Source of the DNA: Zygnema cylindricum | Lineage: Eukaryota > Streptophyta > Zygnematophyceae > Zygnematales > Zygnemataceae | Direction: 5' to 3' | NCBI GenBank assembly: GCA_037447655.1 | Contig: JBBHKE010002644.1 | Location: 124,001 to 188,000 of the forward strand | Length of the DNA: 64,000 nucleotides | Shown here: one piece after another, positions 7,329-63,176 of the stretch | Layout of the letters: the number at the start of each line of letters is the position of its first letter | Position numbering within the stretch: position 1 is the first letter of the stretch | Notes under the pieces: model-generated | Seen by the model: only the letters and a program-made list of their open reading frames with translations | Database searches by the model: none | Told to the model about the DNA's origin: nothing | Program-made: the position numbers and the translations under genes

Positions 7329-7404
7329 ACATAGTAAAAAAGGTCAAATGTGCGTCGGACCGCAAATTGACACCTCAAAAAAAAGATAGAACACTTAGCC
7401 AAAT

Positions 7405-9245: not shown

Positions 9246-9246
9246 T

Positions 9247-10010: not shown

Positions 10011-10192
10011 GTATTTCCACAAAACATCAATAGGGTTAACAACATCAACCATCACAATTTTATTTCAAATTTGTAATCACGATTTACAAGTTTTTTTTGT
10101 ACAAATCATATTGTTTCCTTTTCCTATCTATTACACCCAACGAAAACATGTTCTATACCCCGACCGCTAACCTTTATCCTATCTTCTTCCCC

Positions 10193-12975: not shown

Positions 12976-13038
12976 CCACGCAACAAGTAGAATAACATGC
13001 AAACAATTATAACTTTGAGCGTTTAGAAACGACTTTAC

Positions 13039-14441: not shown

Positions 14442-14687
14442 GATGGTATATTTTACTCCGCTCTCTCTTTCCCTCTTATCCGGTGTCTTTCACCACAAAT
14501 TTCCTTTCCTCCTCCAAGGCAACATCCGAAAATGAGTTGTTTATTTCTATTTATAAAGAGGGTGGCTTTTCGACTTCCCTTTAAAACTCAACCTTTTGTT
14601 GTTGTACTTTGTATGAGGCGGTTGCTAACTTTTCCTCTTTGTCATTTCTTTTTGTACTTTTTGGTTAAGGCGGTTGCAAACCTTTCC
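14442..14687. other. upstream region of the OTU gene, nothing identified
   Basis: T-rich non-coding DNA lies 5' of the OTU start codon. It presumably contains its promoter, but no TATA box or known element could be fixed. It runs into the AT-rich direct repeat at 14688. Confidence 0.4.
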
Positions 14688-16088: not shown

Positions 16089-16795
16089 ATCCCCCTCCCA
16101 TTGTGAATCCCCCTCTGAAAACAAACCTAACTTAGGTCTACTTCATAAAATTACGTCATAAACCGCCGCCTTAGACAACATGTCTACGGCCTCCTTCGCA
16201 TAACACGCATAAAAACTCGATCTCCTTCGCTGCAACCTTAGTGAAAATTTGCAAACAGCCAATCAAAATGCCCAACTCACCCGAGCATCTCTTTGATCCA
16301 AACCGACGCCTTTGCTGTATGACACACAACCACATATTCACACTCCGTGGAACTTAGCACAACCGTAGGTTGGAGCCGCGAACTACAAGAAACCGCCACG
16401 CCGCCCAAAATGAAAGCGTACCCTGACATGGATTTTCCACTGTCAAAATCTCCTCCCCAATGTGCGTGGCAGTAATCGATACACTGCAAAGAGTCTCCTT
16501 TGGACTTATACATCAAGCCGAAATGGATCATACCAACCAAATAGCGAAATATTTGTTTCACAACCTCCTAATGATTCTTTTTCCGAGCATTACAATAACG
16601 ACATACAACGAACACTGCCGCCGTAATATTCGGACGCGTGCCTAAGCTCAAGTACATTAGACTACCAACGGTTTCACGGTATGTTGACACATTTTCTTCC
16701 TCTTCGTAATTTTTGTACTGTAATTTTGGATCTAATGGCGTCGAGGCAGGTTTTGCGCCAATCATACCAAATCTGGTCAAGACCTCTGTACCTTA
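16089..16795 (-). pseudogene. Copia element A, RNase H and RT C-terminal remnant
   Basis: Minus-strand translation gives the RT connection (GAKPASTPLDPKLQ, YRETVGSLMYLSLGTRPNI) and RNase H (FRYLVGMIHFGLMYKSKGDS, YCHAHWGGDFDSGKSMSGY, SSRLQPTVVLSSTECEYV, KASVWIKEMLGELG). The downstream part has a deletion before VAAKEIEFLCV. Frames are broken, so this is a fossil. At 16795 it is interrupted by a solo LTR of element B with target duplication CCTTA, and it continues at 17374. Confidence 0.85.
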
Positions 16796-17368
16796 TGTTA
16801 CGATTCATTGAAAGAATCGTACGCACGCAGAATCAATTTGATTTTGCGAAAGAAAAACTGTACTTTCTAGAATATACCGAAAGTACAGTTACGTGTATTT
16901 AGATAAAGTTCTAGTTGTTTCGCGAAATATATTTGTTGTTTCGTTTCGCGTCTAGATTGTCGTACGTCTAATATAGTACGATAGTACTTCTAGCTTTGTG
17001 TATTACTTTCGTCTTAGTTTGTTGTTTTGCTATGTTTCAGCCCTTAGTGAGAATTAGAGTGTTCTAGTGTAATCTGCGGACAGGTGGCATCTGGAAGCTT
17101 CTTGGCGGCGCACGCTCACACGTGTCACGCCATCGGTGGTATTGTATTTAAGGGACACCATGACTGTGTGTTAATCAATCAATATAAAAATTGGAGGATT
17201 ATATGGAGTAATAGAAGAGAAAGAGAAGAAATTGTAATTTCAGTTTTTTATTAATGTGAAAATTTTCCGAAATGTCTCTTCAATGTTGATGTAATGTTTT
17301 ATATTCTAAATGCTTCTGCTGCTATAAGTGTTTGTAAGTGAGCTCAGAGTTTTTTATCGATCCTTTCA
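16796..17368 (+). mobile_element. solo LTR of Copia element B (573 bp)
   Basis: Starts TGTTACGATTC and ends GATCCTTTCA, flanked by the 5-bp target duplication CCTTA (16791-16795 and 17369-17373). It is nearly identical and equal in length to 19722-20294, which is followed by a primer-binding site and gag. With no internal region here, it is a solo LTR left by LTR-LTR recombination, lying within element A. A TATA-like TATTTAAGG lies near 17150. Confidence 0.93.
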
Positions 17369-18190
17369 CCTTACTGAGTTTGACTTAACTTAATTACATT
17401 CTCGGTGGACCTTATGACTTCTATCCCCAAAATGTACCTTACTTCTCCAAGTTATGTTATTTTAAAATGAATGCTAAGGTACTTTTTTAACTTATTATTA
17501 ACTGTCAACGTATCATTAATCATTAGAAAGTCATCGACATACACTAGAAAAAATAATTTGGTCCTTTCCCTCTCCTTTCACGTAAACTCGTGAATCTGAA
17601 GTTATACGAGCAAATCCATAATTAGTAAGTACCTTATGAAGACGATGGTACCATGTCCTCGGCGCCAGTTTTAACCTGTACAAGGATTTTCTCAAACGCC
17701 ATACTCTTCCTCTCTTTGAAAGCACACCCTCAAGCACCTTCATATAAACCTCCTCTTCTAACACTTCGTTTAAGAAGACCGTTTTTACATCCATTTGATG
17801 TATATGCTTATTCTCTGCGACCGCAATAGTAATTAACATTCTCAAAGAATCAAACTTATCAACCAGTGCATAAGTTTTTGAGTAATCAACCCCTTCTACT
17901 TGTTGAAAAACTTTACAAACCAATCTAGCATTATATTTTATTATCTCCCCGGTAGCACAAGTTTTTATTTTAAATATCCATTAAGCATCAATCGCCTTCA
18001 TCCCCGCTAGAAGACTCACCTCCTCACAAGTTTTATTATCGATGATTGATTTTAATTCTCTCTCCCACGCCGGTTTCCACTTATCATCCCAACCCATAAA
18101 ACTTCGTGCCTCGACGTAAGATTGGGGATCAACGGGCATATTCTCGGTCAGTAATTGCTACAAAATAAATGCCTCCTCCGAGGCGGCCGA
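17369..18190 (-). pseudogene. Copia element A, reverse transcriptase remnant with UAG at its 5' border
   Basis: Minus-strand reading gives an RT fragment: DPQSYVEARSFMGWDDKWKP, KVFQQVEGVDYSKTYALVDK, HQMDVKTVFLNEVLEEEVYM and RVWRLRKSLYRLKLAPRTWY, then a broken YVDD region. Upstream, the end of integrase (EEAFIL) is followed by TAG at 18160-18158 and then CAA TTA, at the same place as in elements B, D and E. Stops and the loss of everything upstream of 18190 show it is a fossil. Confidence 0.8.
18152..18160 (-). promoter_or_regulatory. UAG-CAA-UUA leaky-stop motif, element A
   Basis: On the minus strand the integrase frame ends TAG CAA TTA and continues in frame into RT. It matches the UAG-CAR-YYA readthrough consensus. 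Confidence 0.6.
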
Positions 18191-19118: not shown

Positions 19119-19721
19119 CTTCGCATAACACGCATAAAAACTCGATCTCCTTCGCTGCAACCTTAGTGAAAATTTGCAAACAGCCAATCAAAATGCCCAA
19201 CTCACCCGAGCATCTCTTTGATCCAAACCGACGCCTTTGCTGTATGACACACAACCACATATTCACACTCCGTGGAACTTAGCACAACCGTAGGTTGGAG
19301 CCGCGCGAACTACAAGAAACCGCCACGACGCCCAAAATGAAAGCGTACCCTGACATGGATTTTCCACTGTCAAAATCCTCCCCAATGTGCGTGGCAGTAA
19401 TCGATACACTGCAAAGAGTCTCCTTTGGACTTATACATCAAGCCGAAATGGATCATACCAACCAAATAGCGAAATATTTGTTTCACAACCTCCTAATGAT
19501 TCTTTTTCCGAGCATTACAATAACGACATACAACGAACACTGCCGCCGTAATATTCGGACGCGTGCCTAAGCTCAAGTACATTAGACTACCAACGGTTTC
19601 ACGGTATGTTGGACACATTTTCTTCCTCTTCGTAATTTTTGTACTGTAATTTTGGATCTAATGGCGTCGAGGCAGGTTTTGCGCCAATCATACCAAATCT
19701 GGTCAAGACCTCTGTACCTTA
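19119..19721 (-). repeat. duplicate of element A RNase H fragment (copy of 16195-16795)
   Basis: Nearly identical to 16195-16795, including the pol remnants and the CCTTA target site, and continuing directly into the same 573-bp LTR. The left junction (19118/19119) cuts the element A sequence inside VAAKEIEF. It joins unrelated DNA, so element A's 3' LTR is missing here. Confidence 0.9.
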
Positions 19722-20294
19722 TGTTACGATTCATTGAAAGAATCGTACGCACGCAGAATCAATTTGATTTTGCGAAAGAAAAACTGTACTTTCTAGAATA
19801 TACCGAAAGTACAGTTACGTGTATTTAGATAAAGTTCTAGTTGTTTCGCGAAATATATTTGTTGTTTCGTTTCGCGTCTAGATTGTCGTACGTCTAATAT
19901 AGTACGATAGTACTTCTAGCTTTGTGTATTACTTTCGTCTTAGTTTGTTGTTTTGCTATGTTTTAGCCCTTAGTGAGAATTAGAGTGTGCTAGTCTAATC
20001 TGCGGTCAGGTGGCATCTGGAAGCTTCTTGGCGGCGCACGCTCACACGTGTCACGCCATCGGTGGTATTGTATTTAAGGGACACCATGACTGTGTGTTAA
20101 TCAATCAATATAAAAATTGGAGGATTATATGGAGTAATAGAAGAGAAAGAGAAGAAATTGTAATTTCAGTTTTTTATTAATGTGAGAATTTTCTGAAATG
20201 TCTCTTCAATGTTGATGTAATGTTTTATATTCTGAATGCTTCTGCTGCTATAAGTGTTTGTAAGTGAGCTCAGAGTTTTTTATCGATCCTTTCA
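19722..20294 (+). mobile_element. 5' LTR of Copia element B (573 bp)
   Basis: TGTTACGATTC to CCTTTCA, preceded by CCTTA (19717-19721) and followed two bases later by a primer-binding site. It matches the solo LTR at 16796-17368 base for base apart from a few substitutions. No 3' LTR of element B is present in the window. Confidence 0.93.
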
Positions 20295-20535: not shown

Positions 20536-23500
20536 ATGTCTGACAATCAAATGTGAGAGTATTTGGAGAATTTTATGCGTCGGATTGATGAGAAATTTTC
20601 GGCCGTGGATAGGAGGTTTGATGAGTTAGCTCACGGTGAGCCGGATCCCGATCCGGATGGAGGAGATTCCGATGATAGTGATGAGGAGGCAAAGAAAGTG
20701 AAAGATAAGTGGTGGAAATTTAAGCTTGATGACGATTCCGATTTAGAAGAAGATAGTCAAGGAGGAGTGGAAATGTTTCAGTTGCCCGGAAAGACCGTTG
20801 TATTCAATGGATCGAATTACCCTTCGTGGAAGAAATATATTCGAGCTCAATTGATTTTGAGAGGCCTTTGGAAGGTCGTCAATGGAGAGGAGAAAATGCC
20901 GGTTGGAGATGCTAAGGCTCGTCGTTTGTGGAAACAAAAGAATCTCGCGGCCATCACCGGATTAATGCAAACATGTTCTGTGTCCGTCCATGATCATTTC
21001 CTCATGCATAGCACCGCACATGGATGTTGGAAGACGTTGGAATCCCAATTTGAGAGGGGAATCCAAAACAAGGGGCAATATATGTTTTCTGATTTCATGC
21101 AATTTAAAATGAAATCCAACGAATCTTTTGACGATGCCGTGAAGAGATTCAATATTATTGTGGAGCAACTTCTTAACAATGGGAGAATGATCACGCAGGA
21201 GGACAAAGTAACCGGATTTTTGAATGCGTTACCAGATAAATGGATCCACCTCAAGGAGATTTTACTTGCGAGGGAAAATAATACTTACGAGTTTATTGTG
21301 AATTATTTAAAGATGGGGGAAAGTAATCCTGTTAGCTCTTCAAAGAGCTCCTTGAGCACGGGATCTTTGAATGTGACCGCTCCCGAATTCGCAAATTTGC
21401 ATTATTTCCGTGGAAGAGGGAGTGGAAAAGGAGGAGGTACGAGAGGTCGTGGAAAATGGCTTGATATGGGTGGAAATCTAAGATCTCGGTCCGCCCAAAA
21501 TGACAGTAGCAACGTCTTGTGTTTCTGTTGCAACCGGCCCGGTCATTTTTTGGCTTCGTGTCCGAAAAAAGAGAGAGAATGCAACAATTGTGGGAAAGTA
21601 GGCCACACGAGCCAACAATGCTACTCTAAATTTAGTAGCGGAGGAGTAAGAGGCGGTCGCAGTTTTGGTGGTCGCGGTCGCGGACGTGATAGTGGTCGTG
21701 GTCGTGGACGCTATGGCGGTCATGGTGGAAGCCATGGAAATTTCGTTGACTTGGGAAATTACGAAGGAGGCGAAGGTGGACAAACGTTCACTTGTCTTCA
21801 CCTCACCATTGATTCTTTAAGTGACGCACGCGATGACGCACACGAAAAGGAATGGATTATTGACACGAGAGCGTCTCACCACGTGTGTACGGACGCTACA
21901 CTTTTTGACGACATGCGCTCACTTACCGTTCAAAAGCTAATTACAGTCGGAAGTGGACAAACTATAAAGGTTGGTACCGTAGGTACCGTTCGATTATATT
22001 TACCTACGTGGGACCGTTTTGGAAATGAAACGATATCGGAAGCACGTTTATTGAACGTCCTATATATTCCGGACGGTTTGGTGAATCTATTAAGTGTACC
22101 TCAAATTCAGCAAGCCGGTGGGAGCGTAGTCGCTAGAGGTGATTCGGCGATTCGCATATATCGCGCCGACGGCAAATTAATCGACGAAGGAGAAGTCACC
22201 AATTCGATGCATAGTCAACTTTTATGGAGGCGACCAAGGAAGAATGCTTATTCCACTTGCATTCTAAATCAAATCTCGGAATTAAAGGGAGATTTAATGT
22301 TATGGCACCATCGGAGTGTCATACATCCGAAGGAAATTTGAGGAGAATGATAAAAACGGCATGTGTAAGAGGATTAGATCTTACAACTGGTGAAAAAGTA
22401 AATGGATGCGATGGATGTAGTCAAGGACGACAAATTCGGAAACCACATCCTACGAAAGATGTGAAATTTCGGGCTGAACATCCATTGGAGCTTGTCCACG
22501 TCGATCTATGTGGACAAATTAAGCCGGAGAGTCTTGGAGGAAATCGATATATTATGGTCATCGTTGATGATTATTCAAGATTTTCGTGGGTTTGATTATT
22601 GAAGAGGAAATCAGATGCTCTTGAAACTTTTATTAAGTGGCATGCATTTTCGGAAAGACAATCCGAACGGAAATTGAAAGCCATTCGTTCGGATAATGGA
22701 GGCGAATTTATTGCATTCGAGAGGTATTGTAAGGAGAAAGGAATTACCCAACAATTCACTTCACCTTATTCTCTGGAATCCAATGGAGTAGCCGAAAGGA
22801 AGAATAGGACCTTACAAGAAATGGTGAGAGCAATGGTGCATTCGGCCGGTCAAAGTATCTCATTATGCGGAGATGCTATCCTCACGGCCAATTACATTTG
22901 TAATCGGAGACTTACTTCGGTTTCCGGTGATAAAATACCATTCGAATTACTTTATGGGCGAAAACCAGCTCTCCATCATCTCTGAATTTGGGGATGTCAT
23001 GCTACGGTATATGTCGATCAAGTGAAAAGGAAAGGGAAATTTGCGGCGAGAAGTTGGCCCGGAATTTTCGTGGGCTATAGTACGAAAGAAAATATTTATC
23101 GTGTATTTGATCCGGTTCGTCGTATTGTGGAAGAATCCCGAAATGTTAATTTTCTTGAAGATTTAAAATCGGTTATTGAGAAATCGGCGGAATTGAAGAA
23201 GAATCTTGATTTCTATGAGGTAGACGATGTCACAAATTTCCCGGAAATTGAGGACTCGGATTCGGATGAGGAGCCGGAATCCATTGTCAACATCAAGAAG
23301 GGAAAATCAAATTTTGATTCGAGTTCGGAGAAATTGAACATTGACATTGATGTTCGGAGTAATGTGAGCCGAAATTCCAAAATGTCGACGGAAAGTCAAA
23401 AATCTTCGAGTTCAAAATCTAATATGGACGAGGAGGAGAAGATTGTGGATCAAGTTCCGGTTCTTAGACGGAGTACACGAGAGAATAGAGGAAAGAAACC

Positions 23501-23585
23501 AAATCGGCTTTCTTATGCCAAAATTGGTGGAGAGAATTCCCATTATTTCGTCTCCAATGCAAAGGAGACCGAATTCCTTTTATAG
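20536..23585 (+). pseudogene. element B Gag-protease-integrase
   Basis: Gag starts at ATG 20536 (MSDNQM), with one TGA at 20554 before the long frame. It has an acidic N-terminus, the Copia gag domain (FNGSNYPSWKKYIRAQL, VKRFNIIVEQLL), two CCHC knuckles (CFCCNRPGHFLASC and CNNCGKVGHTSQQC) and an Arg-Gly-rich RGG-like tail. Protease follows with WIIDTRASHH, where the usual DTGAS or DSGAS has Arg in place of Gly, probably inactivating. Integrase is in a shifted frame after an indel near 22310. It has the zinc-binding region, then HVDLCGQ, IRSDNGGEF and ESNGVAERKNRT as the DDE residues, with stops near 22592 and 22983. It ends FLL-TAG at 23583-23585. The copy is defective but recent. Confidence 0.9.
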
Positions 23586-23591
23586 CAATTA
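23583..23591 (+). promoter_or_regulatory. UAG-CAA-UUA leaky-stop motif between integrase and RT, element B
   Basis: TTA TAG CAA TTA ATG, with the same frame open on both sides. It is identical to the tobamovirus-type readthrough signal. Elements A, D and E carry TAG CAA at the aligned position. Confidence 0.65.
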
Positions 23592-24770
23592 ATGTGCGAG
23601 AATTTGGCCGGTGATCCTCAATCATACGCGGAGGCGAGAAACTCGTGTGATTGGGAAACGAAGTGGAAGCCGGCATGGGAGAAGGAGTATAAGTCAATTG
23701 TGGAAAATTGGACATTTGAGGAAGTAAAATTACCGGAACGAAAGAAAGCGATTGACGCGAAATGGGTCTTCAAAACTAAAACTGGTGCATCGGGTGAAGT
23801 AGTAAAATATAAGGCTAGACTTATTTGTAAAGGATTTCAGCAAAGAGATGGGGTAGATTATACGGAGACATATGCTCCCGTTGTGAAATTCGACTCTCTT
23901 AGGATGATTATGGCGATTGCCGCTGTAAGGAAGAAACACGTTCATCAAATGGACGTTGAGACGGCGTTTTTGAATGGAGTGTTAGAAGAAGAGGTTTACA
24001 TAAAGATACCTGAAGGTGTGACCTCACGAGAAGGAATGGTATGGCGTCTTCGAAAATCGCTCTATGGGTTGAAGCAAGCGCCTCACACTTGGTATCTACG
24101 CCTACACAAAGTTCTTTTGGACTTTGGTTTCACACGTACGATTTCGGATTCTGGAGTGTACGTAAAAGGACAAGGAAAAGATCAAATTATATTTTTGGTT
24201 TACGTAGATGATTTCTTGATGACGTCGGATAGTTTGGAACGTATACGCGAAATGAAAGCGTATTTACGACAACATTTCAAAGTCACAGACAATATTGTAA
24301 GGAAGTATTAACGCAATTTTCCATGCTTGATGCAAAACCAATTTCGACGCGTATGGACGCGAAAAGTCAATTGCGAAAGTTCGAGGAAGAAGCGACGGTA
24401 GACGTACCGTACCGCGAAGCGATTGGAAGTTTAATGTACCTAAGTGTTGGTACGCGGCCCAATATTTCGGCCGCTGTTTCAATTGTAAGTCGATATTGCC
24501 AAGCGCCAAAGAAATCACATTGGGAAGCCGTCAAGCGTATATTTCGATACTTGGCGCGAACTATGGATATCGGTCTTGTATTCAAAGCTAAAAGAGAATC
24601 GTTGGAATGCGTCGGATATTGCGACGCCGATTGGGGCGGAGATTTCGATTCGGAATATCAACGTCCGGATATGCGTTTTCTGCCAAAAGCAACGGAGGCC
24701 AGAGGCATTGTATTTACTGCGGCGACCGTCTAACTTTGTCTGTACGACTTTTGGCAACGCCAGCCTGTCC
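23586..24770 (+). pseudogene. element B reverse transcriptase-RNase H
   Basis: In frame after the TAG comes the RT domain: WKPAWEKEYKSI, AKWVFKTKTG, ARLICKGFQQRDGVDYTETY, HQMDVETAFLNG, LYGLKQAPHTWY, and YVDD in FLVYVDDFLM. A deletion near 24300 removes the stretch after LRQHFKVTD. The sequence resumes at MLDAKPISTRMD with the connection domain and RNase H (FRYLARTMDIGLVFKAKRES, YCDADWGGDFDS). RNase H is frameshifted from 24655 (SGYAF in another frame), decays by ~24770, and the 3' LTR is absent. Confidence 0.88.
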
Positions 24771-27322: not shown

Positions 27323-29131
27323 CTCCCTTTAGTTTCTAGTCACTTTTAAATTTAAGTCCACATTTTTCTCTACAGAAAATTAATTTAGGTGAGGTTACAT
27401 GCTTTGTCATCATGTCTGCCACCATCTCACTGTCTGGTCTATACCCTAGACTTATTATTTGTTCTCCACCTTTTCCTTGACAAAGCTAAGTCTGATATCC
27501 ATGTGCTTTGCTTTAAAGTGATGTTTGGGATTAGCAGCAATTGCAATTTCTGCTTGATTATCACATAATACTTTCTCAATTCCACTCTTAAGATGTCCCA
27601 ATTCACCAAGCAAGGATTTAACCCACATCAATTCCTTCACAGTAGAGCAAGATGCTATATAGTCTACCTCTATAGTGGACTGAGCAATGACCTTTTGCTG
27701 TTTACTTATCCAGCAACAAGCACCATTCCCCACACACAACACATATCCAGATGTACATCTTCGCCTCGGAGCATCCCCATAGCAGGCAGCACTCGAAGTG
27801 GTGATGTCAGTATTTTCCCCACCTACATGCAGCCATAGATCCCTAGTTCCTATGAGATATTTCAGGACCCTCTTAGCTGCTTCTCAATCCCTTTTGGTAG
27901 GAGCATTCAGACTCCTATTTAGCACTTCCTATAGCTGTTGCCAAATCTGGTGTGGGAAAATTCATGAAATAAAACAGACTGCCCACTACCTATCTATATG
28001 GGATAGTCTGCATAAACCTTTTCTCTTTTGGACCTAGTTCGTCTTTTAGAATTAGGATATCTCCTTCCTCACTCCCATCAGTTCCCTTCTTTAGGTCCAT
28101 GGGAGTCGTTCAATTGTTGGCTTTGTCAATCTGAAATTTTTCCAACATGTTTCGAATTGCCTCTTTATGAGTTAGTCTAATTATTCTCTTTTCTCTTTCT
28201 TTCTCTACTTGTATTCCAAGAATATATCTTGCCTCCCCCATGTCTTTCATTTACAATCTTCCCTATAGATCTGTTTTTAGTTTGTTGATTTTTTCCATTC
28301 TCTTATTCCGAACAAGCAATCATCAACGTAAATTGCAATAAAGATGACACTTTCCTCATCTTCAAAAACATAAATTGAATGATGTGAACTTATCCGGATG
28401 TATCCCAGACCGGTAAGGAACTCATCAAGTTTCTTGTTCCATTGTTTGGGCGCATGTTTTAAACCATAGAGAGATTTGATCAGCCGGCATACCTTACTTT
28501 CCTCTCCTAGTTCCACGAATCCTTCCGGCTGTCGCATGAAGATCTCCTGCTCTAGTTCTCCATGTAAGAAGGCTTTCTTGATGTCCATCTGGTGTACTTC
28601 TATGTCTTCAACAACTGCCAGACTGAGAAGTATCCGGACCGAGGGAAATTTGACGACCAGAGCAAAGGTTTCTTTGTAGTTTATTCCCTCTTTCTGAGTA
28701 AAACCTTTGGCCACTAACCGGGCCTTATACCGCTCAATAGTATTGTCCGGATTCATTTTTAATTTGAAAACCCACTTACATCCAATTGGTTTTCGATCGG
28801 GTGGACTGTCCACCAACTCCCATGTATCAGCCGCGATGATTGAAGCCATCTCTTTATTGATGGCCGACTTCCACCGGTTTCTTTCGAAGCAGTTCATTGC
28901 CTCTCCATATGCTAGAGGTTCATTTGGGTGAGACAGTTTAATTACCTTGTTGTTAACTTGTTTCTCTTGAAACTTTTTGTTGCTACTTCTCCCTCCCTCA
29001 AAATCTGTGGCCGGAAAAGATGGTTCCCGTGGATTCTTTCGAATCACCACGGCTTTTCCCTTGTCCCTTGGATCCATATCCGTTTCCACCACGTCTTTCG
29101 ATTCAGGTATAGGTGGCATTGGTGTTTCCAA
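27323..29131 (-). pseudogene. C1 reverse transcriptase-RNase H
   Basis: The frame 29131-28277 holds the integrase C-terminal tail and RT: NRWKSAINKEMASI, GCKWVFKLKMNPDNTIERYK, ARLVAKGFTQKEGINYKETF, HQMDIKKAFLHGEL, SLYGLKHAPKQW and YVDD in IAIYVDDCL. It then shifts frame after the YVDD box. RNase H is recognisable at 27455-28130 (ACCWISKQQKVIAQSTIEVD, VKELMWVKSLLGELGHL, NPKHHFKAKHMDIRLSF) with a one-base loss giving a stop at 27455. It is not functional. Confidence 0.88.
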
Positions 29132-31694
29132 GTCCTAGTCTTTTCTCGGTCTGTTTTGAACCTACAAGGATATCATCCAAACCTGCAAGAGTATCATCTT
29201 CTTGGAGACCCATATAGTTAGGAAGATGAAAGTCATCATAATTATTTGACTCAAATCTGATTTTGACTAACTTTGAGGATTTGAAGGGATCTACCGACTT
29301 CCCTTCATTCATAGCTACCAGGTGCTTTACTAGAATTATATCTTCTCTCTTTAGATCATACACTCTATACCGTTTTACATCCATATCATATCCCAACAAG
29401 TATCAGTGTTTCCCTTTAGGATCTAGTTTCCAGCTAGATTTATCTGTATCTAAATTGAAGATTTTACTACCGAAAACCTTTAAGTGAGATAGATCTGGTT
29501 TTTGGCCGGTTCATCTCTCATATGGAGTTTGGCCTTTCACCGCCGAAGTAAGTACTCTATTTCTCAAATAATTAGCACAATTCATAACTTCGGCCCAAAA
29601 TCTTTTTCCTATCCTTTTATATGACAACATACTCCGGGCAATATCATTCAATGTCCTATTCAATCTTTCGGCATCACCATTCTATTCCGGATTTTTCGAA
29701 ACTGTCTTTTGATGTTGCACACTATCATCTCTTAAAAACCCCTCAAACTGATTGGAGGTATATTCCCCTCCATTGTCACTTCTTACTCTCTTTATTAAGG
29801 TCTCGTGAAGCTTCTCGGCCCATGCCTTATATTGTTTGAAATACTCCGAAGTTTTTGATTTGTTTTTCAAAAAAAATACCCGGGAGTACCGAGACCAATC
29901 ATCGGTAATGGTTAGCATAAATCTTTTCCTTCCGGGTGATGGCACTCTTGCCGATGCCCAAATTTTCGTGTGTACCAAATCAATAAATTTTTCTCCTTTA
30001 TAAGTTGCTTCCTTTGGAAATGGTAATCTACGTGCTTAACCCTGAGCACACCCACTGCAATCACTTAAATTCTCATTTTCCTCAAAGCGTATCCCTTCAA
30101 CTGCTCCCATCTTTTTCATTTCATTTAGCTTTTCTAGATTCACATGTCCAAGTCTATTATGCCACAACATAATATCATTGACACCAGCATAGTAAAGTTT
30201 GAGTTTTTCATTACTTAAAGCAAGCCTGAACATTCGTTGTCTACCTTTCTCAACAGTGAAGTACAGATCTTCCTCAAAGCTAACAGTAAAAACTCCTTTT
30301 CTGGTGCTAGTTTTAATCGTTTATCATCTAATAGAGATGTAGAGATAAGGTTTTTGTTTAACTCCGGATTAAACAATACATCGGAGAACGTAACTATTGA
30401 AGTTTTTCCCTCCACTACCACTTTCAGATCTACCGATCCTACATAAGTAGTGGTACTACCTTCCCATCCCCATATTCTATCTCTATTGTAGGAATCTTTC
30501 TCAGCTAAGTGAAGAGATGCTTATCCTTGCACATGTGCATGGAGGCACTTATCTCCACAATCCAGCCTCCTTCACATTTTAGTCCACCGAAAGCACATTT
30601 TTGCTTTCGTGGAATTTTGACTTCTGTCTTTGCCTCCAACTCTTCATCTAAAAGAAGTTCATCGTCCTCCTCATTGGATTCCTCCTCGAGTACCTGTGTG
30701 ACAAGTGCCTTTTTCTTTCCTTGTGGCTGAACCCCGGTCTGCCCCTCCTTGATCCGAAGCTCGATCAGTTTGGTACATTCGCCATGTTATGCGCGGGTTT
30801 CTTGCAGAAATTACATAGTCCCTTAGGTCTCCTTGTTCCAAACTCATCGGATTGATTTGTCTAGTCTCCCCCTCCATGACTTCCAAGGGGTTTCCCTGAA
30901 TATTTATTTCTCCAACTTGCTCAGGCTGCCAAGGCTTGTCCACTCTTAACTCCCCTACGGATTTCGATAGTATTCTCTCGGACGAGGATCATACAAACTA
31001 CCGAAATCCATATCCACCTAGAGTGTGGCAGATCTTGTACCCGGTTCACAATGTTCTCATACTCATCGGGTAGTTTCATGAGTAAGCATTGAACCTTTGC
31101 CTTCTTGGTTTCTACCTTTGCGGCACACTCTAACTCCATCAAGACTATAGCCAGCTCATTGCAGAAATCAAGCATCTTCTCTCATTTGTGAAAGTATCCA
31201 TTGATCTTTTGCTTTGCCAGCTACTGTTCGTGAATCGTACCGCTCCGGTACATCTCTATAAGCGCATCCCACAGATCGGATGCCCTTTCCACCTGCAAAT
31301 GAGGACTTGCGAATCCTTGTGTGAGATGACAGAGGATAAATTGCTTGGCCGCCATGTTGTTGTAGTCCCAGATATCGATGTCATTCTCCTCATTCCTCGG
31401 AATATGAGACATGAAAACAGAATCGGTTTATATAGGTGAGGTTTTCTCTTTGTGTTTCCCCTTTTCCATCACGATACTTTTTCCGTCTTCTGAGTCCTCT
31501 GATGGCGTTGGATCTAGTTTCCTAGTAAATTTGCTTCCTCCAAACCTTGGAGGGATAGCAGGACCGGCTGGACGCTTTACTCGCCCACTTACTATTCCCT
31601 AAAATCTTTTCTCACATAGGGCTCACATCATCATACTCTCCCAGTAGATAAACCTAGTCCCATTGAATGTGGGCACCCTAGAGGGTGGGCCCAT
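29103..31694 (-). pseudogene. C1 Gag-protease-integrase
   Basis: Gag begins MGPPSRVP-like at ATG 31694, only four bases inside the LTR border. It continues through frameshifts to a damaged CCHC knuckle near 30800 (CNFCKKPAHNMA, then an indel). The protease motif has decayed to WIVEISASMHMCKD (catalytic Asp lost). Integrase has WHNRLGHVNLEKL, CSGCAQG, then HTKIWA in place of HTDIWG (first acidic residue lost), VRSDNGGEYTS and ERLNRT. Stops interrupt the frame. No UAG-CAA junction precedes RT in this family. Confidence 0.85.
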
Positions 31695-45534: not shown

Positions 45535-46344
45535 CTAGTCAATCTTTAATTTCAGACCACACTTCTCCCTGCAGAAAATTAGCTTAGGGGAAGGCATAGG
45601 TTTGGTCATCATATCTGCTACCATCTCACTATCTGGTCGGTACTCTAAACTGATTATTTTATTTTCTACTTTCTCTCTAACAAAGCTGAGTCTGATGTCC
45701 ATGTGTTTGGCTTTAAAATGATGTTTAGGATTGGCAGAAATAGCAATTGCTGCCTGATTATCACAAAATATTTTCTGCACACCACTCTTAAGATGACCAA
45801 GCTCACCAAGCAAAGACTTGACCCACATCAATTCTTTTACAGCAGAGCAAGAGGCCATATACTCAGCCTCCATGGTGGACTGAGCAATAACCTTTTGCTG
45901 TTTGCTACTCCAACAGCAAGCCCCATCACCCACATATAATACATATCCAAAAGTGCATCTCCTCATCGGAGCATCACCATAACTAACATCACTCCAAGTA
46001 GTGATGTCAGTATTCTCCCCACCCAAATGCAACCATAGATCCCTAGTTCCTATCAAGTATCTAAGGACTCTCTTAGTTGCCTCCCAATCCCTTTTAGTGG
46101 GAGCATTTAGACTTCTAGTCAGCACTCCTACAGCTGCAGCTAAATCCTGCCGGGTACAATTCATAAAATAGATTAGACTTCGCAATACTTGCCTGTAAGG
46201 AATAGTCTGCATGAACTTCTGTTCTTCAGGAGATAATTCCTCGTCTAAGACTATGACTCCTTCTTCCTCACTCCCCTCACTTCCCTTCTTCAACTCCATT
46301 GGAGATGTACAAGCTATTAGCTTTATCCATTTGAAATTTTTCAA
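45535..46344 (-). CDS. C3 RNase H domain (Copia pol C-terminus)
   Basis: A 269-codon open frame covers the RT connection and RNase H: SPMELKKGSEGSEEEGVIVL, PYRQVLRSLIYFMNCTRQDL, RYLIGTRDLWLHLGGEN, CCWSSKQQKVIAQSTMEAEY, VKELMWVKSLLGELGHL, FCDNQAAIAISANPKHHF, HMDIRLSFVREKVENK, and the C-terminal SEMVADMMTKPMPSPKL. The acidic residues of the catalytic core are present. It is out of frame with the upstream RT by an indel at ~46310 (KANS...), so the polyprotein is broken once here. RNase H degrades the RNA strand during reverse transcription in the cytoplasmic particle. Confidence 0.9.
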   Translation of the reverse strand: MKNFKWIKLIACTSPMELKKGSEGSEEEGVIVLDEELSPEEQKFMQTIPYRQVLRSLIYFMNCTRQDLAAAVGVLTRSLNAPTKRDWEATKRVLRYLIGTRDLWLHLGGENTDITTWSDVSYGDAPMRRCTFGYVLYVGDGACCWSSKQQKVIAQSTMEAEYMASCSAVKELMWVKSLLGELGHLKSGVQKIFCDNQAAIAISANPKHHFKAKHMDIRLSFVREKVENKIISLEYRPDSEMVADMMTKPMPSPKLIFCREKCGLKLKID

Positions 46345-48001
46345 GCATGTTCCCTATTGCTTCCTTTTGAGTCAATCTTATAATTTTTCTTTTTCGGTCT
46401 CTCTCTACTTGAATTCCCAAAATATATTTTGCTTCCCCCATATCCTTCATTTCAAATCTCCCCTTAAGATCGGTTTTCAGTTTATTAATTTTTTCCATTG
46501 ATTTACTTAAAACAAGCAAATCATCAACATAAATTGCAATAAATATAAAACCTTCCTCATCTTCTAAAACATAGATTGAGTGATATGAGCTGATCCGGAT
46601 ATATCTCAAACCGGTAAGAAACTCATCAAGCTTCTTATTCCACTGTCGAGGCGCTTGTTTCAAACCATAAAGAGATTTAATCAGCCGGCATACCTTACTC
46701 TCCTCTCCTTCCTCCACAAACCCTTCGGGTTGTCGCATGAAGATCTCCTCTTCCAATTCTCCATGCAAAAAGGCTGTTTTGATGTCCATCTGGTGCACTT
46801 CCATGTCTTCCGCTGCTACGAAGCTGAGAAGTATGCGGACGGAGGGAAATTTGACCACCGGGGCAAAGGTTTCCTCGTAGTCAAATCCCTCTTTTTGTGT
46901 AAATCCCTTTGCCACTAATCGGGCCTTGTAGTGCTCGATTGTGTTATCTGGGTTCAGTTTTAATTTGAAAAACCACTTATAACCGATTGGTTTTCGGTTA
47001 GGTGGACAATCTACCAGCTCCCAAGTATCGGCTGCCATAATTGAGGCCATCTCCTCATTGATGGCTGTCTTCCACTGGTTTCTTTCTGGACAAGTCATCG
47101 CCTCTCCATAAGTTTGAGGTTCATCTTGATGAGATAGTTTAGTTACCTTGTTATTAACTTGTTTTTCTTGTAGTCTTTTGCTACTTCTCCTCCACCCCTC
47201 AAAATCTGAGGCTGGAATAGATGGTTCTCGTGGATTCTTTCGAACAAACTCAGCTTCTCCCCTATCCTTTGATTTCGAATCAATTTCCACCACGTCTTCC
47301 GCTTCGGGTAGAGTTGTTACTGGAGTTTCCACAGCCGAGTCCTTTTCGGTCTGATTTGTACCTGCAAGAATGTCATCGTCTCTAAAACCCGGATATTTAG
47401 GGAGTTCAAAGTCATCGGAATTTTCTGACTCAAATCTGATTTTTACTGACTTTGTATATTTGAAGGGATCCACAGACTTTCCTTCATCCATAACTACTAG
47501 ATGCTTTACTAAGATTATATCTTCTCTTTTTAGTTCATAAACTCTATATCCTTTAACATCTTCATCATATCCTAATAAGTATCCCGGTTTTTCTTTAGGA
47601 TCTAGCTTCAAATTAGACCGATTTGTATCTAGACTGAATACTCGATTGCCGAAAACCTTTAAGTGAGATATGTTTGGTTTTTGGCCTGTCCATCTCTCAT
47701 AAGGTGTTTGATCTTTTATAGCTGAAGTAAAAACTCTATATTTGAGGTAATTAGCACAGTTCATTGCTTTTGCTGAAAACCTTTTTCCTATCTTCTTATC
47801 CAACAACATACTTATAGCACTATCACTTAGTGTTCTATTTAACCTTTCAGCTACCCCATTCTGTTCCGGATTTTCTGGAACTGTCTTTTGGTGTTGAACC
47901 CCATCTTCCCTCAGAAAATCCTCAAACTGGTTAGAAGTATACTCTCCACCATTGTCACTCCTTACTCTCTTGATTGGAGTTTCATGGAGTTTTCGCTCCA
48001 T
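46277..48001 (-). CDS. C3 integrase C-terminal half plus reverse transcriptase
   Basis: A 574-codon frame covers integrase from the second acidic residue (RVRSDNGGEYTSNQFEDFL) and the Glu (EQNGVAERLNRTLSDSA), the GKR-type tail (VKGYRVYELKREDIILVKHL), a variable acidic spacer (EAEDVVEIDS), and the whole RT: WKTAINEEMASIMAADTWEL, KLKLNPDNTIEHYKARLVAK, HQMDIKTAFLHGELEEEIFM, KSLYGLKQAPRQW, IAIYVDDLLVLSKSMEK and the ILGIQVERDRKRK region. Integrase passes into RT without any stop, unlike the family of A, B, D and E. The frame breaks at 48001/48045 and ~46310 only. Confidence 0.92.
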   Translation of the reverse strand: MERKLHETPIKRVRSDNGGEYTSNQFEDFLREDGVQHQKTVPENPEQNGVAERLNRTLSDSAISMLLDKKIGKRFSAKAMNCANYLKYRVFTSAIKDQTPYERWTGQKPNISHLKVFGNRVFSLDTNRSNLKLDPKEKPGYLLGYDEDVKGYRVYELKREDIILVKHLVVMDEGKSVDPFKYTKSVKIRFESENSDDFELPKYPGFRDDDILAGTNQTEKDSAVETPVTTLPEAEDVVEIDSKSKDRGEAEFVRKNPREPSIPASDFEGWRRSSKRLQEKQVNNKVTKLSHQDEPQTYGEAMTCPERNQWKTAINEEMASIMAADTWELVDCPPNRKPIGYKWFFKLKLNPDNTIEHYKARLVAKGFTQKEGFDYEETFAPVVKFPSVRILLSFVAAEDMEVHQMDIKTAFLHGELEEEIFMRQPEGFVEEGEESKVCRLIKSLYGLKQAPRQWNKKLDEFLTGLRYIRISSYHSIYVLEDEEGFIFIAIYVDDLLVLSKSMEKINKLKTDLKGRFEMKDMGEAKYILGIQVERDRKRKIIRLTQKEAIGNMLEKFQMDKANSLYISNGVEEGK

Positions 48002-48044
48002 GCTTTATATTGTCTAAAACAATCCTGAGCTTTTGACTTGCTTT

Positions 48045-57199: not shown

Positions 57200-59480
57200 A
57201 ATTTAGTCGATCGAATAAGATAGTAATTTGAAAGCCGATCCTTTTAAACTCGGCTCGAGAACGGTCAATCTAAACGCCGAATTATTTAATGAGTGGACAG
57301 AATTTATGAAAGATAGAGAAGAGAAAAAAGGTAAAAACAAAGTAAAAGATGAAGAATCTAATGATAGTGATGATGACTTAAGTAATGTCTCCATAGACGA
57401 TGATCTTAGATCATGCGGAAAGCCTATTATGTTTAATGGAAGCAACTACGCCATTTGGAAACGATACATTAGACAAACCTTTACGATAAAAAAGCTTTGG
57501 AAGATTACCATTGGAGAAGAACCAAAACCGCAGATACTAAAAAGAGAAAAAAATGGATGCTGAGGGATATGGCAGCTATAACTGGACTTATGGAAACTTG
57601 CTTGAGCTCGGTACATGACCACTTCCTTACTCAGGATACGGCATTCAAATGTTGGACGACACTACAAGACGTCTACGAAAATGGAGTGTCCACAAAAGCT
57701 AATTTTGTATTCAGTGAGTACATTCAATTTAAGATGAAACCAAATGAGTCAATAGATGACGCGGTCAATGTCTTAATTGAACAGTTAAATCGTTTGGGAA
57801 AGTTTTTAGAAGAGGACGAGCGCGTTTGGGTTTTTTTAAAGATGTCAAAAGAAGTCATTATAGGCAATCCTAATCCATGTTTCTCATTTGTTGTCAACCA
57901 TCTTCAAATGTCATAAATGTCAAAGGCAAATTCTTCCAAGAAAGTAGATAGCAAAGGAAATCTCAATGTAAATACCATCGATGATCCGGAAATTAATGCA
58001 CTCCGTGGTTAAGGAGGTATTAGTGGTCAAAATAGAGGGAATGGAAGAGAACCTGACAAAAAACAATGAGATTCAAGTAGCATAACCTATTTTAGATGTA
58101 ACAAGCTAGATCATTACGCGTCGAGGTGTCCTGATAAAGACAAACATTGTCATATATGTCAAAAATAGTGGCATATAAGTACAAATTGTTATGATCGAGG
58201 AGATAACGAGGGATATGACAATTTGTCTTTTCAAGTAAACGGAGGCCGCGAAAAAGGAAAGAGGCCGCGGCTGAGGTGGCAATCAATTCATAGGTGATCG
58301 TCATCAATCCTATTATTACGACAATTACGATGACGACAATAATGACACTTATCAAACTTTTGTTACCTTGATCCAAGGGGACGTACTATGCAAAGTTAAC
58401 GCTATTGACGAAAACGTTGTTTACAAATGTGAGTTTATTTACCGATATGAGAATGTTTACCATACCCAAAAATGTTACAGTAGCGAGCGGACACGTCATA
58501 CGTGTCGATAGCGTAGGTATAGTACAATTAGATTGACTTGTACACGATGAATACGAAAGTCTCAAATTTCATCCTGTCAAAATTCAAAATGCATTTCATA
58601 TTTCTAACGGCGTTGTCAATCTCTTAATTGTCCCACAGATTCAACGTAAAGGTAGACGAGTTACAACACTAGAGGACAACCGCATCTTACTAAGGGACAG
58701 AATAGATGCACCTTTGGGGAAGGTTATGTTAATCAAAATTTCCAAAGCAAACTTAAGTGGCAAAAGCCAAAAAAATCAATCATTTTAGTTAACCTTATGG
58801 AGTGCACTAACAACAGTTTGAGCTTAAGGGATCACAAATTATGTCATACGTCAGAAAATAACATTAAAAAAAATGATTAAAGTGTCGGCGGTCATAGGTT
58901 TAGAAAATAGCGCAGGACAGAAAATCATTGGCTGTGATGGATGCATTAAAGGCAAACAGATTCGCAAATCGCATCAGGTCAAAGACGTCAAAAATAGGTC
59001 ACTGCTTCATTTGACTTGGTACACGTAGATCTTCGTGGAAAGATTGATCTAACTACCTTGGGCGACAATAAGTACATTCTTGTCATTATTGACAATTTCA
59101 GCCGCAAAGCTGGGTGTATTTATTGAAAAAAAATATCTGACAGGTTGCACGCATTTCGTAAGTTTGTACTCTCGGGTGAAAGAATCTCTGAGCGTAAATT
59201 GAAAGCCATACTCTCAGATAATGGCGGCAAGTTTGTCACGTTCAAGGGATTTTGCGAACGAAGAGGAATCCAACTACAATTTACAGCACCGTATTCATCT
59301 GAATCTAACAGAATCGCAAAAAAGAAAAAACGTACCTTGCAAGAAATGGTACGGACTATGCTCGCCAGTTCACAACTTGACGGCCGACTTTGGTGCCACG
59401 CGATTTTGACAGCTTACTACACTAGCGGCCTACGCTTAACGCCAGTTTCGGGTGACAAAACACCTAATGAATTATAGAGC
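57200..59480 (+). pseudogene. element D Gag-protease-integrase remnants
   Basis: Gag is spread over frames at 57228-57563 and 57497-57916 (MFNGSNYAIWKRYIRQTF, LRDMAAITGLMETCLSSVHD, YIQFKMKPNESIDDAV). Two CCHC-like knuckles follow near 58090-58190, the second with a stop (CHICQK). The protease is not recognisable. Integrase begins at ~59010 (DLVHVDLRGKIDLTTLGDN) and continues at 59145-59477 (LKAILSDNGGKFVTF, SSESNRIAKKKKRTLQ, where the catalytic Glu of AERKNRT is Lys). Confidence 0.8.
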
Positions 59481-60110
59481 GGCCGCAAACCGTGCGTTCA
59501 ACATTTACGTGTGTGGGGATGCAAAGCTACAGTTTACATTGAGGCGCGACAGGGAAACAACAAAATTAGTCCGCGGTGCTGGATCGGATATTTTTTCAGT
59601 TACAATACTAAAGGAAGTTTGTACAGGGTGTAGGATCCAACTAGGGATTCTATCGTGGAATCCCGAAATGTCGAGTTTTATGAAAAACTGGAGCGTCTTA
59701 ATGGAGTTCAATCGCAACTTGATCACCCATTTACTTTAGATTTCGAGGAAGAGGACATCATCAAGGAAAGAAGTACTGAGTCTGAAAGTGATGAGGAATA
59801 CGCTATCCGTCTAATTAAAAAATCTATATCGGAAGGTGGTAAGCACTCTGGCACTAATTCCACAATTTCCAAAACTGAATTTGATAGTGAATCCTCCAAA
59901 ACCTCCTCTCACAAAACTCTTCCCATTTCACCACCCATCATTTCAGACATTCTAAAATTTGTTGTCAATGAGGAAGTAGGATTGAGACGTAACACACGTG
60001 AAAAGAAAGGAAAGAGTGTTCAGAGATTGTCTTATGATAAAATTGGAGGAAATATTGAGAAATCTAGCAACTTTATTTATGAAGCTAGATTCAATGAATT
60101 CCTTGCATAG
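59481..60110 (+). pseudogene. element D integrase C-terminal tail ending at UAG
   Basis: The frame 59655-60110 corresponds to the acidic integrase tail (ESRNVEFYEKLERL, SEGGKHSGTNSTISKTEF, GLRRNTREKKGKSVQRLSYD). It ends NEFLA-TAG at 60108-60110, followed in the same frame by CAA ATA and the RT domain. Confidence 0.8.
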
Positions 60111-60116
60111 CAAATA
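60108..60116 (+). promoter_or_regulatory. UAG-CAA-AUA stop junction, element D
   Basis: Same position as in A, B and E. It fits UAG-CAR-YYA except for one base (A in place of the first Y), as expected for a decayed copy. Confidence 0.5.
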
Positions 60117-61705
60117 CTAAGTGAGACCCTTAACGGTGATCCTAATTCCTATTCAGAGGCTCGTGGATTTAGAGATTGGGAAATAAAATGGAAACCTGCT
60201 TGGGAGAAAGAATTTAAGTCAATAGTTGATAATGGTACCTTTTAGGAAATCCCGCTGCCTATTGGTAAAAACGCAATTGATTCTAGGTGGGTATTTAAGA
60301 CAAAAACAGGCTCATTCGGAGAAATTTTGAAATATAAAGCACGATTGGTAGGAAAAGGGTTTCAACATAAAGAGGGGGTCGATTACACAGAAACTTACGC
60401 GCAGGTGGTTAAGTTTGATTCTTTGCGAATGCTTGTTGCTATTGCGGCCGCGAAACGGAAGCACATTCATCAAATGGATGTGGAGACTGCCTTTTTGAAT
60501 GGTGATTTAGAGGAAGAAGTAAATATTAAGGTTCCAAAGGGGGTCCCTTCTAAGACATGAATGTTGTGGAGACTCAAGAAATCTCTTTATGGCTTAAAAC
60601 AAGCCCCTCGAATATGGTACCGAAAACTTCATGAGGTACTTTTTTTTTTTGGTTTTAAGAGAACTACCTCTGATTTAAGGGTTTATGTGAAAGGATATGG
60701 AAGTGAGGAAATCTTGTTTAGTGTCTATGTTGATGATTTCTTTATGATTTCGGATAGCTTGGACAAAATTAGAGGGTTGAAAATTTACATGAGAACCCAT
60801 TTTAAAGTTACAGACTTAGGGGAAGCAAGATATATTTTGGGCATTGAAATCATTACAGACACTAATGGTTTTCTTAAGTTGAGTCAAGAACAATACTACA
60901 ATTTTTTTTTAACGAGATTCAAAATGTTAGATGCCAAACCTAAGAGCACACCATTGGATCCTAAGTTACAATTGAGTAAATTTGATGACGAGATTACCGT
61001 TGATGTTCCATATAGAGAGGCCATTGGATGTCTGATGTATCTTAATGTGGGAACTAGACCAAAAATTTCAGCAAGGGTTAGCATTGTGAGTCGATATTGT
61101 CAAGAACCTAAGCGAGCACAAGAAAGTGTCAAGAGAATTTTGAGATATTTGGTAGGAACCATGAGTAGGGGACCCGTTTATAAGTCAGATATGGACTTAG
61201 ATTGTTATGGACTTAGATTGTTATGGATATTGTGACGCCGACTAGGGAGGAGACTTTGATAGGGAAAGTCAACATTCGACTATATATTTATTTTGTCTGG
61301 AGCGGCAATATTGTGTAGTTCGAGATTGCAACCAACCGTGGCGTTGAGTTCTACTGAAACGGAGTATATAGCCGCCACTCATGCAACAAAGACATCAATT
61401 TGGATAAACGAGATGATGAGTGAGCTAGGAGTTAAACTTGATTGCATGACTATTTACTCAGATAGCATGTCTAGTTTTGCTCTTGCCAAAAATCCTGTAT
61501 TTCAGAAGAGAACAAAACATATTCTTATACAGTGGCATTTTATTAAAGACAGTGGAGGCTAAGGAGATTGAGTTTGTCTTTGTGCGTACTGGCGAAGAAG
61601 CAGCTAATATGTTAACTAAGTCTGCTATTGGTGATGTGTTTGTCAAGGATAAACATAGACTAGGATTATTTTAGTGTGTACGGATTCTCCCATAGAGAGT
61701 GGGAA
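60111..61705 (+). pseudogene. element D reverse transcriptase-RNase H
   Basis: RT: DPNSYSEARGFRDWEIKWKP, ARLVGKGFQHKEGVDYTETY, HQMDVETAFLNGDLEEEV, a TGA at 60558, then LYGLKQAPRIWY and FSVYVDDFFMISDSLDK, and GEARYILGIEIITDTNGF. The connection and RNase H follow (YREAIGCLMYLNVGTRPKIS, SSRLQPTVALSSTETEYI, YSDSMSSFALAKNPVFQKRT, FVRTGEEAANMLTKSAIGDV) with a short duplication and frameshift near 61200. The last coding part ends at 61674, just before the 3' LTR. Confidence 0.88.
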
Positions 61706-61923: not shown

Positions 61924-61981
61924 ATGCATTCAAAATTTCTGTTACTTTGTCCTCCTCCGTGATTACTCTCCCATTGTTGAG
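61924..61981 (-). pseudogene. short inverted Copia gag fragment
   Basis: The reverse complement reads as the gag segment LLNNGR-ITEEDKVT-ILNA found in element B at 21170-21235. It lies opposite to the integrase fragment that starts at 61982, so the junction is a rearrangement. Confidence 0.75.
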
Positions 61982-63176
61982 ATTTGGTCCATGTTGATTT
62001 ATGTGGACACATTAAACCGGAGAGTATTGGGGGGAATAGATATTTAATGGTGATTGTGGATGATTACTCACGATTTTCTTGGGTAATCCTCTTGAGTTCA
62101 AAATCTGAAGTTCTTGAGAGATTTAAGGAGTGGCATGTCATGGCGGAGAGACAATGCGAAATAAAATTGAACTCAATTCGAACCGACAATGGTGGTGAAT
62201 TCATCGCATTTGATGGATATTGTCGAGAATGGGGAATCAAGCATCAATTGACGGCTTCTTACTCCCCGGAATCCAATGGAGTTGCTGAACGAAAAAATCG
62301 GACATTACAAGAAATGGTTCGCTCCATGGTGCACGCATTCGGTCTCTCAATGTTGTTTTGGGGAGATGCGATTTTGACCGCCAACTACATTTGTAATCGG
62401 CGGCTTACTTCAATTTCAGGTGATAAGACTCACCACGAGTTATGGTACGGCAAAAGACCGACACTTCATCACCTTCGGATTTGGGGATGCCAAGCGACCG
62501 TCTATGTGGAATCGCAAAAGAGAAAAGGAAAATTTGCGGCAAGAAGTTGGACCGGAATTTTCGTCGGTTATAGTTCAAAAGGAAATCTTTATCGAATCTA
62601 TAATCCAGTTAATCGTATAATTATTGAATCTCGGAATGTAAATTTCCATGAAGACTTAAAATCAGCAATTGAAAAATCGGCGAAATCTCACAAAAATCTC
62701 GATTTTCTTGAAGAAGACGAAATTGCTCAATTTCCAAATATCGAAGGATCGGATTCAGAAAATGAACCTGAGTCGGAGTCTAATGTTAAGAAGGGGAAAA
62801 AAAAATTGGACATTAAGGATGACATTGGGGACATTGACATTGAATCTCAAAGTGTCAATTCCCGGATGTCCTCGGAATCTCAAAATTTTCAAAATTCTAA
62901 ATCTAGTTTGCCGAGTGTAACTGAAATGGAACCGAACGTTGAAGAAGATGCTCAATTACGGAGGAGTATAAGAGATACAAGGGGAAGGAAACCGACACGT
63001 TTGTCGTATGATAAAAAAAAGGGAAATGTCGAAAATACTCACTACTTTATTTCGGCGTCGAGAGAGGAGGATTTCCTCCTCTAGCAATCACTTTGTGAAA
63101 ATTCTGCCGTTGACCCTCAATCTTATCATGAAGCGAGAAATTCAAAAGATTGGGAGTCAAAATGGCAACCGGCTTG
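61982..63176 (+). pseudogene. Copia element E fragment: integrase core and RT start
   Basis: The frame 61984-63084 is uninterrupted and begins inside integrase. It has HVDLCGHIKPESIGGNRYLM (first Asp), IRTDNGGEFIAFDGYCREW (second Asp), SPESNGVAERKNRTLQEMV (Glu), the FAARSWTGIFVGYSSKGNLY region, and an acidic tail ending EDFLL-TAG (63082-63084). It continues in frame as QSLCENSAVDPQSYHEARNS up to the gap. All three catalytic acidic residues are present, so this is the best preserved integrase of the first family, although the element is truncated at both ends. Confidence 0.88.
63082..63090 (+). promoter_or_regulatory. UAG-CAA-UCA leaky-stop motif, element E
   Basis: CTC TAG CAA TCA CTT, with the frame open on both sides. 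It fits UAG-CAR-YYA exactly and is in an otherwise intact frame. Confidence 0.65.

Follow-up and report, generated by a model that had tools for sequence, protein, structure and literature searches.

In a clade of Ty1/copia elements of Zygnema cylindricum, an in-frame TAG followed by a hexamer of the type CARYYA stands between integrase and reverse transcriptase (RT), and the conservation of this stop, of the reading phase across it and of the hexamer exceeds chance. The best explanation, to which we give a probability of roughly 0.8 on the strength of sequence comparisons, is programmed UAG readthrough of the tobamovirus type, placed inside pol. Each element would then carry two consecutive frames in the same phase, ORF1 for Gag, protease (PR) and integrase (IN) and ORF2 for RT and RNase H (RH), with one UAG CAA YYA between them. 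The majority of ribosomes would terminate at the UAG and release Gag-PR-IN, and in a minority a near-cognate tRNA would decode the UAG to give Gag-PR-IN-RT-RH, so that integrase and protease would be as abundant as Gag, and RT-RNase H would amount to a small part of that. The occurrence of such readthrough, its rate and selection for the ratio of the two products are what we infer from these comparisons. No description of an in-frame stop between these two domains was found in the literature searched, with most subscription papers lying outside its scope.

The integrase/RT boundary in the window and in long open copies

The window, i.e. the whole stretch of 64,000 nucleotides that was analysed, contains four elements with this stop (A, B, D and E), and a C-family Copia served as control. 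The features are as follows.

20557..22341, + strand: element B, Gag, zinc knuckle and protease region in an open frame (Pfam Retrotran_gag_2, zf-CCHC, Pol_BBD)
22488..23582, + strand: element B, integrase region; a stop is followed by the final 199 codons (from 22986), which stay open as far as the TAG
23583..23585, + strand: element B, in-frame TAG at the integrase/RT boundary (reading frames; TAG in 145/150 located copies)
23586..23591, + strand: element B, CAATTA, a CARYYA-type readthrough context (junction comparison)
23586..24311, + strand: element B, RT frame directly 3' of the TAG (RVT_2), closing at a later stop
24233..24733, + strand: element B (broken copy), RNase H region read in a different frame, without a Pfam match on its own
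18152..18160, − strand: element A, TAG CAATTA at the integrase/RT boundary (junction comparison)
17549..18157, − strand: element A, RT region 3' of the TAG (broken copy)
60108..60116, + strand: element D, TAG CAAATA at the integrase/RT boundary; not CARYYA
59013..60107, + strand: element D (broken copy), integrase region ending at the TAG
60111..61235, + strand: element D (broken copy), region of RT and RNase H
63082..63090, + strand: element E, TAG CAATCA at the integrase/RT boundary
61981..63081, + strand: element E, integrase frame of 367 codons, open to the TAG (rve, SH3)
63085..63174, + strand: element E, first 30 RT codons, before an assembly gap
46277..48004, − strand: C-family Copia control, integrase end into RT in a single open frame without a boundary stop (ORFs, Pfam)

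An earlier note, made from the letters of the window, had claimed that the integrase frame ends in TAG at the aligned place in A, B, D and E, with the RT frame open in phase just downstream, and this was found in all four. The hexamers behind the TAG had also been read correctly (CAATTA in B and A, CAAATA in D and CAATCA in E), with three of the four matching CARYYA. As the same note had stated, the elements are diverged, the RT protein of B being 68% identical to that of D and 66% to that of A, and their other stops are not common to them, as the extra stops inside A and D lie at differing places; judging by the RT identities, the copies are old. Its remark that the C family has no such stop agrees with three open reading frames in the window, at 46277-48004 (−), 37660-38601 (+) and 28277-29134 (−), all of which span the integrase tail into RT.

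Several repeats and one gap lie next to these elements. A run of ten Ns at 63177-63186, 92 bases 3' of the TAG of element E, joins this element to C-family-like sequence from ~63455, possibly through an error in scaffolding. The junction of element A is flanked by a direct repeat of 1.18 kb (16194-17368 and 19119-20294, 98.9% identical) with RNase H-like sequence inside, and has the look of either elements in tandem or a partial tandem duplication of recent date. Three C-family Copia are flanked by repeat pairs of ~1.05 kb, at 44472-45521/49876-50927 (95% identical), 34147-35210/39496-40558 (94%) and 26308-27322/31694-32740 (86%), and these pairs look like the LTRs of the three copies.

The organisation on both sides of the stop was read from long open copies. 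L037 and L043 each have 1124 open codons, TAG CAATCA and 518 open codons, and L042 has 1130 and 518 open codons around its junction; as both ends of these stretches are stops, translation must really begin somewhere inside them. ORF1 of L037 matches Pfam Retrotran_gag_2, zf-CCHC, Pol_BBD, gag_pre-integrs, rve and SH3, and its ORF2 matches RVT_2, which gives the Ty1/copia domain order Gag-PR-IN-RT-RH with a copia-type RVT_2. There is no Pfam call for RNase H in L037 or B, and RNase H in ORF2 is a name that we base on the length of ORF2 and on the source's name for the metagenomic protein P0001 (see below). With these domains and ORF lengths, the earlier claim that the stop splits Gag-PR-IN from RT-RNase H inside pol stands. 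The stop precedes RT and ORF2 contains RVT_2, and the layout is thus not that of SIRE1, in which the stop comes after RT-RNase H and is followed by an env-like ORF; nor is it the Gag|enzymes layout of Tj1, Tca2 and MuLV, as ORF1 includes both the protease region (Pol_BBD) and integrase. Over 3 kb around the junction, L037, L043 and L048 share 98.8-99.2% identity, so that elements of this form were probably still active not long ago.

Junctions across the genome

The assembly (352.8 Mb) was searched with the RT of element B, giving at least 151 matches, and the junction set consists of 153 copies: 150 listed matches, of which L001 is B itself, together with A, D and E from the window. As the matches were ranked on similarity to B, the sample is skewed to families near B. 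The assembly also contains a 44-aa piece of COX1, for which the PDB chain 7jro_a (mung bean) is the best match at 70.7 bits, compared with 50.5 bits for 6giq_a (yeast); this hints at the green lineage, though the piece may be a transferred fragment of organelle DNA. The 150 matches were examined as 30 with 1.5-kb flanks, 20 longer stretches and 100 short junction stretches, the latter being scored for TAG, TAA, TGA or AAG before C in phase with RT, with other cases left unscored, which among the short stretches were L095 and L103 only. This gave 150 scored copies out of 153; L040 has a deletion at the junction site, L095 has a frameshift just 3' of the site with TAG CAATCA visible, and L103 has other DNA upstream.

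The boundary codon is TAG in 145 of the 150 scored junctions, TAA in three (L006, L021, L034) and AAG in two (L046, L141). It is followed by CAATCA in 90 junctions, CAATTA in 44, CAACTA in seven and CAAATA in two, and by CTATCA, CATTCA, CAATCG, CAACCA, CCATCA, CAACTC and CAAGCA in a single copy each. CARYYA is present in 142/150, the departures being CAAATA (window D and L105) and one copy each of CTATCA, CATTCA, CAATCG, CCATCA, CAACTC and CAAGCA, and UAG followed by CARYYA, the defining trait of the tobamovirus-type signal, is found in 137 of the 150 located copies. The conservation of TAG CAR YYA which the earlier note had proposed from four copies therefore extends to the family members in the genome, and the survival of the stop goes beyond neutral expectation in the simulation described below, with a sense codon at the site in just two copies and downstream bases that are not random, hexamers other than the three most common ones being found at nine junctions. 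In the same phase, the 15 codons 5' of the site are open in 145 of the 149 copies with enough sequence, and a few copies, such as L011, L012 and L077, have frameshifts farther upstream despite these 15 open codons.

Both AAG copies belong to the L037 group, and parsimony on a short junction tree traces them to a single event. In L046 the frame 5' of the junction (base 3500, element orientation) is broken, and L141 (G000:C2366:80955-81215) is a short junction stretch; the RT frame at C2366 is reported to stay open over 848 codons, which exceeds the length of ORF2. The AAG form might be a variant which has lost the stop.

Single-linkage clustering at 85% of the 148 copies with the full 111-base junction segment resulted in 17 groups (44, 28, 24, 10, 10, 9, 8, 5 and 2 copies, and eight singletons). 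Several of the small groups are broken members of larger ones, and L036, L149 and window D each appear to be a separate lineage. The majority hexamer is CAATCA, CAATTA, CAATCA and CAATCA in the groups of 44, 28, 24 and 10, and CAATTA, CAATCA, CAACTA and CAATCA in the second group of 10 and the groups of nine, eight and five, respectively. Window A, a member of the group of nine, has CAATTA whereas the eight other members have CAATCA, and L149, the one other D-like copy seen, carries CAATTA, so that the CAAATA of window D may be private to that copy. The TAG is common to eleven representatives of different groups, namely L052, L002 (B), L037, L028 (E), L054, L050 (group of A), L132, L035, L036, L149 and window D.

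Selection on the junction and alternatives to readthrough

Over 62 codon columns in the eleven representatives, third-base entropy is zero at codon 0 (TAG), +1 (CAA), +2 (NNA) and, at the edge, +24. Codon +2 encodes Ser, Leu or Ile depending on the group, always with A as its final base, and its middle base is C or T only in the 148 copies; by comparison, codon use in five ORF2s is 73% CAA for Gln, 20% TCA for Ser, 27% TTA and 10% CTA for Leu, and 22% ATA for Ile. On a tree of the 148 junctions, the nine columns of TAG and hexamer have 1, 0, 1, 0, 2, 1, 5, 4 and 2 changes, and the mean for the 183 other junction columns is 5.5; at least 12 of these other columns likewise have zero changes, so the contrast of the site is clearest at third positions. 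As a control, the terminal stop of ORF2 is TGA or TAA in varied context in the 14 copies with an ORF2 of at least 510 codons (50 examined).

These columns bear on an explanation in which the TAG would be a 3' splice site, the AG end of an intron, with a spliced RNA encoding RT-RNase H. TAG is compatible with a YAG splice acceptor, and the codons 5' of it are rich in T and C across groups, mostly reading FLL or FIL. There is also precedent, as Drosophila copia sets its ratio via splicing (PMC2194720; this and the other PMC sources are cited from excerpts of their text). However, CAG would serve a splice site equally well, yet it was found in none of the 150 scored copies, nor by inspection in the three unscored ones, and splicing does not predict the invariant CAA, the fixed A six bases downstream or the same phase without a spacer. 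The TAA of three copies would moreover kill the acceptor, though these copies may be dead, and overall we regard splicing as unlikely.

RT-RNase H could alternatively be started independently of ORF1, through reinitiation or internal entry 3' of the stop. Termination-restart occurs in other retroelements, and four of nine copies have an in-frame ATG at ORF2 codon 3, 5 or 7, but no start is conserved: four of the nine have no in-frame ATG before codon 107-109, inside RT, and one further copy has none before codon 93. Such a restart leaves the common phase and the CARYYA hexamer unexplained, which makes it very unlikely.

Slimmer still are the chances of an altered nuclear code in which UAG is a sense codon of the host. 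While the site always lies within a continuous protein family, as such a code would have it, no further TAG occurs in the open stretches (1124-1130 + 518 codons) of copies L037, L042 and L043, TAA replaces TAG in three copies, all of TAG, TGA and TAA are scattered as stops inside RT, and the window's C-family frame is free of TAG; a sense codon would also need no CARYYA.

We compared the RT frame behind the stop in ten copies from eight groups over 236 codons. Between groups, pS is 0.70-0.96 and dN 0.09-0.35, with the exception of E versus the close L035 group (pS 0.28-0.29, dN 0.04), and pairs within groups have lower pS (0.05 and 0.35). The mostly saturated synonymous sites together with the strong constraint on the RT protein in eight groups indicate that the frame after the stop has long been kept as protein. 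Coding constraint in phase behind the stop, which is a trait of tobamovirus-type signals, is thus seen in pS/dN, in wobble positions and in the phase itself, while a search for general synonymous constraint in ORF2 revealed none. RNA structure 3' of the stop received no support in seven sequences of ~170 bases, where three of 25 predicted pairs had changed on both sides and the covariation term was +1.08. In a neutral simulation, with branch lengths that are rough as they come from 49 four-fold sites which are saturated, the stop was retained in all eight lineages in one of 1,000,000 runs, and as TAG in all eight in none. As many copies are broken, the case rests on the comparison between families. 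Least probable of all is an inherited or chance nonsense mutation in a decaying master copy, since, for all the broken copies with scattered other stops, the stop is present in 11 groups (with synonymous sites mostly saturated and RT constrained in the eight tested), its neutral survival is 1/1,000,000 simulations, and copies with both ORFs long and open retain it.

Known readthrough systems and relatives of the clade

Programmed UAG readthrough, the reading we prefer, has well-described counterparts elsewhere. CARYYA stimulates readthrough, and in one mammalian context (~15%) all six bases appear to matter; in that context UAG and UGA are far better than UAA (PMC4132726), and such weak UAA readthrough would fit the scarcity of TAA at the junctions. 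CAR-YYA alone directs readthrough in tobacco mosaic virus (TMV), and the TMV signal is active in yeast and human systems (PMC2194720). The Zygnema cylindricum elements have the same UAG and hexamer as TMV, with UAG CAA UUA in B and A, and the lack of a supported 3' structure is in line with the hexamer-only type in the excerpt of PMC2194720. In Moloney murine leukaemia virus an enzyme level is set by readthrough of a gag UAG, but there a spacer and a pseudoknot are required and the position is gag|pol (PMC2194720). TMV differs in another respect, as its signal is in the replicase of a plant RNA virus, whereas the putative signal here is in a retrotransposon polyprotein.

With regard to the Ty1/copia elements, SIRE1 of soybean has an in-frame stop as well, and Havecker and Voytas are said to have described, in 2003, a readthrough signal of this kind at its pol/env-like stop. 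SIRE1 is listed among the elements with gag/pol or pol/env split by an in-frame stop (PMC2194720, excerpt), and going by the title of the cited paper its stop lies before an env-like ORF, unlike the stop between integrase and RT inside pol described here, where ORF2 is RT-RNase H. Tca2/pCal of Candida albicans is also a Ty1/copia element with an in-frame stop, but this is a UGA at gag|pol, and readthrough was undetected in S. cerevisiae according to the excerpt of PMC2194720. The GalEa fungal Copia elements have a single ORF (PMC5445492, excerpt). A conserved in-frame stop with conserved flanks, interpreted as programmed readthrough, is found in the fission yeast Ty3 elements Tj1, Tosmo1-3 and Tcry1; these are however Ty3/gypsy elements with TGA and CT, arranged as Gag|PR-RT-IN with all enzymes behind the stop (PMC10085805), whereas integrase and protease are on the Gag side in the Zygnema cylindricum elements. 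Some groups of plant LTR elements have two ORFs (Neumann 2019, PMC6317226), but these encode GAG or GAG-PROT in the first ORF and all other domains in the second, and an IN/RT split is not among the two-ORF groups described in the excerpt of that paper.

Relatives were also found beyond this genome. With the L037 ORF1 as query (residues 560-1124), P0121-P0124 were the best four of 115 listed proteins. P0122, P0123 and P0124 (1072, 1022 and 1064 aa, 37-40% identity over ORF1) are metagenomic, come from contigs of 4.5-5.5 kb and extend from Gag to SH3 without RT; their C-termini coincide with the aligned stop or lie just a few residues from it. The metagenomic RT protein P0001 (517 aa, 62% identity), which its source named ribonuclease HI, starts within a few residues of the site, and the start and end points of these four proteins suggest that they too have a stop at the junction. 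The fourth of the best ORF1 matches, P0121, also metagenomic, is an uninterrupted polyprotein (1574 aa) in which Cys aligns with the stop, and may show the state of the clade before or after the stop. Thus, with AAG in L046 and L141 and Cys in P0121, not every member of the wider clade has the stop.

In a search of genome contigs, six distant Copia loci were found (28-42% identity), and in four of these, L153-L156, which come from bacterial records, the junction was read and contained no stop. Relatives in viral contigs were sought and none found. A profile search with four ORF1 proteins, in which only 7979 candidates were scored, gave 81 other proteins, many of them from Closterium, and the close clade was not among them, an outcome that on this number of candidates carries no weight either way.

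We lean towards the view that the Copia clade is old, that it occurs in more than one organism, and that its dosage switch was moved from Gag|Pol into pol, with RT as the only rare product. In the usual description, retroelements make far more Gag than enzymes (PMC2194720, excerpt), and protease and integrase at structural level would, if true, overturn the rule that all enzymes are low. With integrase and protease on the Gag side and RT-RNase H alone behind the stop, the element would test which enzyme must be scarce. It would also provide a natural multi-copy UAG-CARYYA in a chromosomal element, with more than 100 copies in several families, making selection measurable base by base.

The remainder of the window contains further repeats and open frames. 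A broken DDE_Tnp_1_7 transposase, presumably of the piggyBac type, is present in two overlapping frames at 10193-12341 (−), and an open frame of 485 codons at 12955-14412 (−) has a weak sub-cut-off match to Y1_Tnp, with no Pfam match above the cut-off. Another open frame, of 588 codons at 3270-5036 (−), has no Pfam match. Repeated units of ~180-190 bases, which also match their own reverse complement, occupy 7400-10020 and 14685-15433, and a near-perfect tandem array with steps of ~127 bases lies at 2021-3156.
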